A stretch of 64,000 nucleotides of DNA from Bacillus bingmayongensis (GTDB lineage Bacteria; Bacillota; Bacilli; Bacillales; Bacillaceae_G): positions 408,439 through 472,438 of the forward strand of contig NZ_JH921518.1 of assembly GCF_000299035.1 (NCBI RefSeq), read 5' to 3'. The notes beneath the pieces are model-generated. The model had not been told where the DNA came from and ran no database searches. It saw only the letters and a program-made list of their open reading frames with translations. Positions 8,131-62,966 of this stretch are shown piece by piece. The position numbers and the translations under genes are program-made. Each line of letters starts with the position of its first letter. The stretch's first letter is position 1.

Positions 8131-8265
8131 CGTATATATGTAGGGTGGGCTACATCCGAATTTACGCTTGTGGAGTGCTATATCAAATTGTGGTAGCGAA
8201 TAAGTGGCGAAGCGAGGCACATAGAAGCAAGAATGATCTAACGTAGATGATTATGTTTGTCTATG
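8131..8265 (+). ncRNA. putative TnpB omega (reRNA) region and element right end
   Basis: Between the tnpB stop and the right end lie about 130 bases that are clearly less AT-rich than the surroundings (GTAGGGTGGGCTAC..., AGTGGCGAAGCGAGGCAC). In IS200/605 and IS607 elements this position encodes the omega RNA that guides TnpB, with the guide taken from flanking DNA past the right end. The assignment is by position and composition only; the exact RNA ends are not determined. Confidence 0.45.
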
Positions 8266-35658: not shown

Positions 35659-35665
35659 GACAAAA

Positions 35666-35706
35666 TCTCCTTAGTTTTTTTACGTGGGATGGTTTCGAAC
35701 CACGTG
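35666..35706 (-). promoter_or_regulatory. preQ1-I riboswitch
   Basis: Minus strand: CACGTGGTTCGAAACCATCC, then CACGT, then AAAAAAACTAAGGAG. This has the P1 hairpin and the A-rich tail ending in the Shine-Dalgarno sequence, the compact class-I preQ1 aptamer. The AAGGAG of queT is part of the 3' tail, so ligand binding should hide it and switch translation off. Confidence 0.9.
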
Positions 35707-35840
35707 ATTCGTTTTTAAACAACAATTTTATATTGTACGCAATAGCTAATCATTCGTCAATAGATCCCTACCATTCACTACCCTTTTTCTCATAGACAAC
35801 GTATAATAAAAAATATGAAAGATTTAGGAGGTTTCGCTTC

Positions 35841-46941: not shown

Positions 46942-46997
46942 ATTATCGTCTCCTCCTCTACAACATAGGAAGAAACGCTTTGTTTCTCAATTTATCT

Positions 46998-47037
46998 CAC
47001 TTTAACAATTCATGCATTTCTACAGCCTGTTAAAGTG
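46998..47037 (-). promoter_or_regulatory. leader hairpin between small ORF and ATPase start
   Basis: 10-bp perfect stem CACTTTAACA/TGTTAAAGTG (46998-47007 with 47028-47037). It starts about 35 bases after the leader ORF stop and ends about 56 bases before the ATPase start. A second short hairpin GAAAC/GTTTC follows near 46970-46985. Confidence 0.6.
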
Positions 47038-47071
47038 TTCCACATTCAACTTACAACGATAAAGCTGAACG

Positions 47072-47176
47072 TTACCTTATGATAAATATAGGGGGAGGAA
47101 CAAGTCGTTTCCTGCCTACATCATATATTTTTGTTTTGAAGTATATGGGTAACGGAACCGAGTCAGAATTTGACAT
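47072..47176 (-). CDS. Pro-rich leader peptide ORF, 34 aa
   Basis: ATG 47176 is preceded by a very strong GAGGAGGTGAGGAGC. The 34-residue product begins MSNSDSVPLPIYF and ends RLVPPPIFIIR. It lies between the M-box terminator and the ATPase gene. Enterobacterial mgtA is preceded by a Pro-rich leader peptide (MgtL) that senses proline or Mg2+ through ribosome stalling or instability. Similar logic is possible here, but no homology is claimed. It might instead be a fortuitous ORF or a relic. Confidence 0.5.
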   Translation of the reverse strand: MSNSDSVPLPIYFKTKIYDVGRKRLVPPPIFIIR

Positions 47177-47245
47177 GCTCCTCACCTCCTCTTTCGTTTT
47201 TTTAGTTAATACTTATAACTATGATAATTCTCATAGCTTGTTACT

Positions 47246-47281
47246 AAAAAGACCTCTACTCGTAAGCGAGTAAAGGTCTTT
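47246..47281 (-). terminator. M-box riboswitch terminator
   Basis: 15-bp stem AAAGACCTTTACTCG/CGAGTAGAGGTCTTT on the minus strand with one mismatch, a 4-base loop, then TTTTTAG. It lies about 40 bases after the M-box core, where a Mg2+-responsive transcription attenuator is expected. Confidence 0.85.
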
Positions 47282-47317
47282 ACATACATAAATAAGCGAT
47301 TCCTAATAAACATAGAA

Positions 47318-47486
47318 ATCTGCGAACCTCTCCCTCACCGAGTTTTAGCACTGTATAGCATAGGTACGTTACCAGCTACGTTAAGAAAAACCTTAATTCG
47401 ATCATTCCTGTTGACCCATTGGCGTCTCTCGACATTTTTGGGCAGTAGCATTTCTCTATACAGGAGCCTCACCTAACAGAGACTTA
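47318..47486 (-). promoter_or_regulatory. M-box (ykoK/Mg2+) riboswitch
   Basis: The minus strand contains the conserved M-box blocks in order: CTGTTAGGTGAGGCTCCTGT, GCTACTGCCC, AATGTCGAGAGACGCCAATG then GGTCAACAG, TAACGTAGCTGG, and CTATGCTATACAGTGCTAAA. This is the Mg2+-sensing leader found before Bacillus magnesium transporters. With the terminator at 47246 it should switch transcription off when Mg2+ is high. Confidence 0.93.
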
Positions 47487-47505
47487 TTTTTTTATTATAT
47501 AGAAA

Positions 47506-47554
47506 ATGTTACTCCTATTTAAAATAGATGTCAACAGTTTGAATTCAAACTGTT
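47506..47554 (-). promoter_or_regulatory. promoter with 22-bp palindrome upstream of the M-box
   Basis: Minus strand: -35 TTGACA (47529-47534), 17-bp spacer, -10 TAACAT (47506-47511); TATAAT at 47494-47499 is an alternative -10. A perfect 22-bp palindrome with arms AACAGTTTGAA and TTCAAACTGTT occupies 47533-47554, touching the -35. Confidence 0.5.
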
Positions 47555-47605
47555 TCCTTATTACAACAAGTATTTCCTAGAAAATGATTCAGGCCAGGAA
47601 CACTC

Positions 47606-52927: not shown

Positions 52928-53113
52928 TATAGCCCCACACATGCCGTTCTCTCTAGATGTCCATAAACCTGCTCTCACAGGTGGATGTTCTCATAAATGC
53001 TTTCAGTTTCCTTCTTAAAAAGATGGCATGCTGTTTACATTTAGATATTGAACTTCCGTATTATACTCATTGGTTTAAGACATACATAAGCTACGTACAC
53101 CGTAGGAATTTTA
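52928..53113. repeat. tandem ~200-bp repeat, copy A
   Basis: Contains CACATGCCGTTC, AGATGTCCATAAACCTGCTC, CAGGTGGATG, GAACTTCCGTAT, GGTTTAAGACATACATAAGC and TACGTACACCGTAGGA. All recur in the same order in copy B at 53131. The stretch shows no open frame and looks like a structured interspersed element. Confidence 0.7.
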
Positions 53114-53130
53114 TATAATGTTAGTTGAAA

Positions 53131-53320
53131 TAAGACCCCCGCACGTGCCGTCCCTCGTAAATGTCCAAAAACCCGCTACTCGCAGGTGGATGCCCTCACA
53201 GCTACCGTACATCTTCCTCCACAAGGAAGGCTTGATGATGGTCGCTAAATGTTGAGCTTCCGTATAACTAACATCGGTTTTAGACATAAATAAGTTACGT
53301 ACACCGCAGGATGTTTTATT
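53131..53320. repeat. tandem ~200-bp repeat, copy B
   Basis: Contains GCACGTGCCGTCCC, AAATGTCCAAAAACCCGCT, CAGGTGGATGCCCTCACAGC, a CTTCCT/AGGAAG hairpin, GAGCTTCCGTATA, GGTTTTAGACATAAATAAG and TACGTACACCGCAGGA. It is more GC-rich and better structured than copy A. The period is about 205 bp. No gene is seen from 52781 to 53430. Confidence 0.7.
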
Positions 53321-62730: not shown

Positions 62731-62755
62731 CTAAACCAGCAATATATTCGTCCTC

Positions 62756-62824
62756 ACTCATAGTCAAAGTATTTACGGTACTTCGGTAGAAACTTGCAGG
62801 CCATATCCCCGCGATTATATGAGT
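62756..62824 (-). promoter_or_regulatory. guanine riboswitch (purine aptamer)
   Basis: Minus strand: P1 arms ACTCATA/TATGAGT with ATAATCGCGGGGATATGGCC, TTCTACCGAAGTACCGTAAA and TTTGACTATGAGT. The core residue before TATG is C (GACTATG), which specifies guanine/hypoxanthine rather than adenine. It matches the xpt leader of B. subtilis. Confidence 0.95.
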
Positions 62825-62966
62825 GTAGCTAACCTATTTATTTGTAGAAGGATTATAACGCACTTTTTTTATTTTGAAAAGTATTTCTAGAAAAAACACG
62901 TACAAATTTCATAAAAACATCGTTTTCGTTCGCATTTTGAAAACTCTTACATTTTGTATTTTTCTA

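Follow-up and report, generated by a model that had tools for sequence, protein, structure and literature searches.

The 64,000-nucleotide stretch of Bacillus bingmayongensis DNA analysed here (contig NZ_JH921518.1, positions 408,439 to 472,438; the window) carries, at 46942-47560 of its minus strand, a long leader in front of the remnant of an MgtA-type P-type ATPase gene. In this leader an M-box, a Mg2+ riboswitch, and its terminator are followed by a strongly initiated small open reading frame (ORF). Leader ORFs are common behind M-boxes of the sampled class, beyond the window locus: out of 198 M-box leaders, the window included, 131 hold an ORF with the acidic N-terminal signature defined below, against about 2 expected from shuffles. 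The architecture, the signature and, in the window, the complementarity between the ORF and the sequence that hides the ATPase ribosome-binding site can be read directly from the DNA. As the best explanation of the window leader and its kindred M-box leaders we lean towards a two-tier Mg2+ switch, in which the riboswitch would act first and the ribosome second. A preliminary description had proposed two-tier control for this locus. The proposal is supported in outline, as the M-box is followed by a strongly initiated ORF akin to the enterobacterial Mg2+ leader peptides, but the arrangement is widespread and not peculiar to the window.

Leaders were drawn from the Bacilli (the class of Ectobacillus, the nearest genome) and from eight named records of a plasmid collection. 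Set A holds 126 leaders scored out of 130 unique M-box cores, window included; a leader was admitted if it had a gene and, unless this was mgtA, the 3' core as well. For each leader we scored the best-initiated small ORF, calling its ribosome site strong at -9.5 kcal/mol or better, and downstream genes were typed by BLAST against one reference each. The signature is an acid at residues 2-4 plus at least two of D, E or P in residues 2-9, as in MDSSPEPDS, MEDPSQS and MDPDSP; the rule is lenient, and the peptide MKKDRLVDF of leader L136 passes it. Set A is exploratory, the rule having been formed after its inspection. Set B was fetched once the rule was written down, from other loci and kindred families (60 regions and 29 new loci among the matches listed); 11 of these 89 loci had no core, one geneless leader was dropped, and L303, where tandem M-boxes share the same ORF, was counted twice. 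Many leader rows are mutually related, and distinct N-termini were counted as well.

In set A the signature occurs in 48/57 mgtA leaders and 36/46 mgtE leaders, where shuffles give 0.55 and 0.53; strong-site ORFs are present in 56/57 and 38/46 (4.9 and 5.1 in shuffles). Leaders of unclassified genes have a strong-site ORF in 14/20 cases and the signature in 7/20 (0.20 expected), ftsW leaders have either in 1/2 (0.05 expected for the signature), and the only LCP-gene leader has neither (0/1 and 0/1; 0.00 expected). Set B shows the signature in 39/72 leaders against 0.90 expected from shuffles, divided over unclassified genes (27/44), mgtA (2/4), mgtE (10/22) and ftsW (0/2). Over both sets its frequency goes from 2/21 at M-box-to-gene distances below 150 nt to 17/32 at 150-200 nt and 112/145 above. 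S-adenosylmethionine (SAM) riboswitch leaders from the same order yielded 2/29 strong-site ORFs and 0/29 signatures; since most of these leaders are shorter (24/29 below 200 nt), the shuffles are the better control.

The ORFs have their start in common. Among 119 distinct ORF N-termini, 80% have D or E as residue 2; the corresponding share of the 152 distinct downstream-gene starts is 1%. Acids make up 40% of residues 2-4 but 6-7% past residue 10. The shared feature is an acidic, serine- and proline-containing N-terminus, not a Pro-rich C-terminus. The window ORF had been described as Pro-rich. It might be argued that the ORF encodes a stalling peptide which senses proline-tRNA or elongation factor P at its C-terminal Pro27-Pro29, given that the window ORF ends VPPPIFIIR and that several long mgtA-leader ORFs (L075, L077, L079, L104) have PPLP or PPIP near their end. 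However, proline accounts for 2-5% of residues 11-30, and a ribosome halted at codons 27-29 would be expected to block the predicted helix X (see below) and leave the gene off, contrary to induction. We consider stalling distinctly unlikely.

The ORFs are 7-67 residues long, with a median of 36. Of the 97 distinct signature ORFs, 31 have their stop within 22 nt upstream of the gene, 19 inside it, 30 at 23-60 nt upstream and 17 farther away. A terminator-like stem follows 11 of these 17 far-stopping ORFs in a search run without shuffle control, the stem of L149 perhaps belonging to another M-box. Over nine clusters, the ratio of non-synonymous to synonymous differences per site (pN/pS) is 0.44 for codons 2-10 and 0.48 for the rest, counted on only ~10 and ~30 synonymous differences. 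The peptide is conserved, and there may be constraint on codons or RNA besides. A small trans-acting protein, as proposed for Rv1805A behind the Mycobacterium tuberculosis M-box (PMC12810186), would account for the strong ribosome sites and for a moderate pN/pS that extends into the C-terminal part; we give this reading little credence, as across clusters it is mainly the first residues that are common while the remainder diverges, lengths vary widely, and the 19 ORFs mentioned above stop inside the downstream gene. Those 31 that end close to the gene lie at a usual coupling distance, and in 34 mgtE leaders a ribosome placed at the ORF stop raises the mean predicted opening of the gene's ribosome site (0.62 vs 0.48). 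Both observations would suit an ORF whose only role is to maintain ribosome coverage of the leader or translational coupling to the transporter gene, with no Mg2+ sensing at the ribosome. Such a role leaves the acidic residue 2, which is so rare in the genes behind these ORFs, unexplained, and seems improbable to us.

Comparable peptides are known from enterobacteria. On Escherichia coli MgtL (EPDP), low Mg2+ promotes ribosome dissociation and thereby permits mgtA transcription (PMC11282234); in Salmonella, the ribosome is destabilised by Asp2 and Glu5 of MgtQ, and both residues are required, via alternative stems, for MgtB to be made at low Mg2+ (PMC8092293). Like the M-box ORFs, MgtL of E. 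coli and Salmonella mgtA is a short pump-leader ORF with acidic and proline residues directly after the start (PMC11282234). The likeness is one of kind; the window peptide contains a single acid. The two also differ: the output of MgtL is a Rho-dependent terminator (PMC11282234), whereas here an M-box with an intrinsic terminator precedes the ORF, and transcription of the MgtL system is driven by PhoP/PhoQ (PMC4072509). MgtQ, an 8-residue ORF between Salmonella mgtC and mgtB, shares a strong AGGAGG, and its alternative ORF stems, which hide or free the transporter's ribosome site, resemble those predicted for the window; it is, however, intergenic and without a riboswitch upstream, and its translation is needed for mgtB (a start-codon change lowers mgtB), a requirement absent from the window model (PMC8092293). 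The pe20 M-box of M. tuberculosis likewise has a conserved small ORF, rv1805A, between M-box and operon, but works with a translational expression platform and Rho, and the excerpted account does not describe rv1805A as a drop-off leader (PMC12810186). We found no other M-box for which the open-access literature describes a small ORF; its logic is a different one. The B. subtilis mgtE (ykoK) M-box follows the same aptamer/terminator logic as the window, and the mgtE leader of B. velezensis (L138, a named record) has an ORF MDSPHSSMSEEVPIY...; in its excerpted form, the account of the B. subtilis M-box does not mention a leader ORF (PMC4072509). Two-tier control of this kind was not found in print: among the matches listed in the open-access literature there was no report of leader ORFs behind Bacilli M-boxes, subscription papers being mostly outside that scope.

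M-boxes generally let a terminator form at high Mg2+, upon which transcription stops. Judged by its sequence match, the window M-box would provide this first tier. As to the second, ribosomes would initiate on the leader ORF of those transcripts that pass the terminator. With adequate Mg2+ they would traverse the ORF, cover codons 18-32 and block helix X, so that the ATPase ribosome site is sequestered in hairpin Y. When Mg2+ is low, the acidic, proline- and serine-containing nascent start would cause early fall-off by intrinsic ribosome destabilisation, as described for E. coli MgtL; the freed ORF RNA could then capture the emerging anti-ribosome-site sequence, and the ATPase start would be exposed. 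We infer the same principle behind the M-box because the ORFs match MgtL and MgtQ in place, ribosome site and start residues; translation of the ORF, Mg2+-dependent drop-off and the direction of the effect would all follow from that analogy. The output would vary by leader: the ORF may end over or beyond the start of the gene, hairpins may surround the ribosome site of the gene, or a second terminator may follow.

Going along the minus strand, the window leader runs from a palindrome and promoter-like pair over M-box, terminator, 34-codon ORF and 10-bp hairpin to the MgtA remnant (Table 1), and all leader elements named in the preliminary description are indeed present. The M-box matches the full covariance model with 148.9 bits (gathering score 44, E 7e-34). 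Arms of the terminator stem are 93% complementary; since three Ts of its five-T run sit within the stem, a consensus terminator scan did not list it, though a stem search detected the arms. The ribosome site of the small ORF was rightly called unusually strong, as AGGAGGTGA pairs with the anti-Shine-Dalgarno sequence at -18.2 kcal/mol (rank 10 of the 198 M-box leaders), and both placement and ribosome site of the ORF match those in other M-box leaders. The palindrome AACAGTTTGAATTCAAACTGTT is the sole such site in the window at up to 3 mismatches (0 in 100 shuffles) and, from its sequence, is a probable operator for a dimeric regulator. Promoter-like pairs are not enriched in the region (6 vs 6.5 expected from shuffles).

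Two features had been overlooked: the ATPase ribosome site lies within an 11-bp hairpin, Y, and the sequence that hides this site has its complement in the small ORF. The 10-bp hairpin is not by itself the switch, which is predicted to consist in the ORF RNA pairing with the anti-ribosome-site sequence; the 10-bp hairpin was also rejected as a mask of the ATPase ribosome site, being located upstream of it. Hairpin Y has a stability of -13.7 kcal/mol, equalled by 1/1000 shuffles. Helix X comprises 34 predicted pairs between ORF codons 18-32 and 46996-46959, and its duplex energy of -30.7 kcal/mol (shuffle mean -11.4) was reached by 0/2000 dinucleotide shuffles, 0/2000 codon permutations and 0/3000 random places in the window; the region was picked after the fold had been inspected, and a wider test gave z -3.06 (0/150). 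When the first 40 nt of the ORF are masked, X comes out as the best fold and leaves the site free, provided that the transcript extends no more than 12 nt into the site region, whereas hairpin Y forms when the ORF is masked beyond its stop. On these folding models it is plausible that the pairing of the ORF with the anti-ribosome-site sequence is the switch for the ATPase start.

Table 1. Features of the window leader and, in the last rows, other structured RNAs of the window
Feature	Position in window	Strand	Details
Palindrome AACAGTTTGAATTCAAACTGTT	47533-47554		Perfect, 22 bp; overlaps the -35 box
Promoter-like pair	47534-47506	minus	TTGACA-17-TAACAT; consensus match only
M-box (ykoK leader) Mg2+ riboswitch aptamer	47487-47324	minus	RF00380, model positions 1-169
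M-box intrinsic terminator	47281-47248	minus	Arms 47281-47267 and 47262-47248, 15 nt each
Small-ORF ribosome-binding site AGGAGGTGA	47190-47182	minus	Anti-Shine-Dalgarno pairing
Leader ORF MSNSDSVPLPIYFKTKIYDVGRKRLVPPPIFIIR	47176-47072	minus	34 codons + stop
Helix X, predicted 5' arm	47125-47081	minus	Within ORF, codons 18-32
10-bp hairpin	47037-46998	minus	10 perfect pairs; between the two arms of helix X
Helix X, predicted 3' arm	46996-46959	minus	Includes anti-ribosome-site sequence 46977-46967
Hairpin Y, predicted	46977-46947	minus	CGTTTCTTCCT (46977-46967) pairs with ATPase ribosome site AGGAGGAGACG (46957-46947), 11 bp
MgtA-type P-type ATPase remnant	46941-46210	minus	243 codons
Two tandem 6S RNA genes	52928-53315	minus	101.5 and 96.7 bits
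Purine riboswitch	62741-62842	minus	Above gathering score
preQ1 riboswitch	35665-35709	minus	Above gathering score
RAGATH-18 RNA	8167-8233	plus	Above gathering score

The gene behind this leader is broken in the window. The remnant aligns to residues 2-236 of an 870-residue relative; no match exists past about residue 236, and two full-length relatives gave no further match anywhere in the window. Gaps in the alignment fall on the first hydrophobic helices of the relative (helices judged by eye). Against TIGR01524 (MgtA Mg2+ P-type ATPase) the remnant scores 114 bits, where the cut-off is 610.75, and it is not a full-length match. Despite the loss of most of the pump the remnant stays open over its 243 codons, either as a gene in decay or as a retained fragment. 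With the remnant as query, no close relatives appeared among the genome contigs or viral contigs searched, and plasmid and phage records yielded fragments of M-boxes or distantly related ATPases. With the upstream phosphatase as query there were 42 loci, the nearest in Ectobacillus panaciterrae (71%); neither query brought up a locus named as B. cereus group. In 19 genomes of the Ectobacillus family there was no close ATPase match (best E 6e-16 over 125 residues). A search for MgtA at E 1e-150 yielded 0/397 in the Ectobacillus order, 38/398 in the class, and 6/39 and 94/105 in two families.

Several observations weigh against the two-tier switch. The window peptide starts MSNSDSVPLP, has D5 as its single acid and fails the signature; it is a weak example of the leader-peptide class, and may have weakened along with the broken gene or may act via SDS and PLP. 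At equilibrium, the full-length RNA with the 40-nt mask prefers Y (-59.3) to the open-site X (-55.0), the ATPase ribosome site is 1.5-14% open across all eleven folding states tried, and without a ribosome the ORF ribosome site pairs with the ORF's own proline codons and Y forms. As the site is closed at equilibrium, X, if functional, would need co-transcriptional kinetics. Helix X is also equalled by 92/2000 random synonymous recodings. One might regard the window ORF and its pairings as chance, or as relics that decay in front of a dead gene, which would agree with the remnant state of the ATPase, the failing peptide and the lack of close relatives in the searches above; we think this unlikely in view of the ribosome site (10th of 198), the high M-box score and the strength of helix X (0/2000 shuffles).

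Other objections concern the leaders as a group, 67/198 of which lack the signature. D, E, S and P are each encoded by several codons, but unevenly so: in residues 2-8 of the 97 distinct signature ORFs, AGT makes up 118/163 of the serine codons and CCC 41/109 of the proline codons; the downstream genes use AGT for 20% of their serines and CCC for 11% of their prolines. Past residue 10 this bias is gone (AGT 39/220). Hence an RNA word or poorly decoded codons, rather than an acidic peptide, could be what is selected at the ORF start. The use of several codons for each of the four residues and the absence of a universal word (AGTCC and GATAGT, the commonest tested, each occur in 25/97 distinct starts) make selection on codons or RNA hardly probable as the sole explanation. 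Nor did the pairing and opening tests reveal an output device common to all leaders. ORF-downstream pairing was rejected as a general device, with z below -2 in only 10/36 leaders. So was equilibrium switching of the ribosome site: without a ribosome, site opening changed in the expected direction in 9/27 non-overlapping mgtA leaders and in the opposite one in 8/27, and in mgtE leaders in 2/10 and 4/10. To the eye, ORF and terminator seemed to covary in L074, L075 and L079, but a shuffle test did not uphold this (z 0.22, -0.51 and 0.91).

Signature ORFs are found upstream of mgtA, mgtE, corA and Nramp genes. Ten sampled downstream genes were typed by Pfam as CorA (4), Nramp (3), MgtC (1), MgtE (1) and ABC permease (1), with the signature present in 3/4 CorA leaders (L142 fails), 3/3 Nramp, 1/1 MgtE and 0/1 permease leaders. 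The MgtC family was dropped as a follower, because its only case, L149, has two M-boxes and an ORF that ends 324 nt before the gene. Further examples are a Listeria monocytogenes leader (L135) with ORF MDHHQGEEVEEPDSYY... upstream of an MgtA-like ORF without annotation, and an Enterococcus gallinarum mgtA leader (L141) with ORF MEYPSPQMNN....

Some individual leaders are of interest in themselves. Tandem M-boxes stand before one gene twice, mgtE in L303 and the MgtC-family gene in L149. At L285:552-2159 an M-box lies ahead of the ABC-transporter permease, and its ORF MDSSSRLMFEQ... fails the signature. In L136, L139 and L140 (Enterococcus faecium, E. raffinosus and E. gilvus) M-boxes directly precede cell-wall genes of the FtsW/RodA and LCP families; an acidic leader ORF is absent from 2/3, and the L136 ORF, which passes the lenient rule, extends into the gene. 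In L083, several near-identical direct repeats GCTACGCCAGAGCTGATGATGAACAG... between M-box and ORF lengthen the leader to an M-box-to-gene gap of 768 nt, and long gaps also occur at other loci of the same family.

The M-box is a textbook riboswitch, regarded as complete with its terminator. Our results suggest that the ribosome may act as a second magnesium sensor behind the M-boxes of many Gram-positive bacteria. Across the Bacilli, we incline just slightly to the view that the M-box is commonly one half of a Mg2+ sensor whose other half is the ribosome, which the start of the leader ORF would make abort at low Mg2+. The two would act one after the other on the same transcript, ahead of four or more unrelated Mg2+-transport families, and the arrangement would have an origin independent of MgtL and MgtQ. 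AGT and CCC, if they are weakly decoded, could find a place here, as they perhaps help the ribosome to abort. If this is true in most longer Bacilli M-box leaders, Mg2+ would be read twice on one RNA, by folding and by ribosome stability. Mg2+-dependent destabilisation by the nascent chain would then be a widespread regulatory principle, and the long stretch that separates M-box terminators from transporter genes would be explained.
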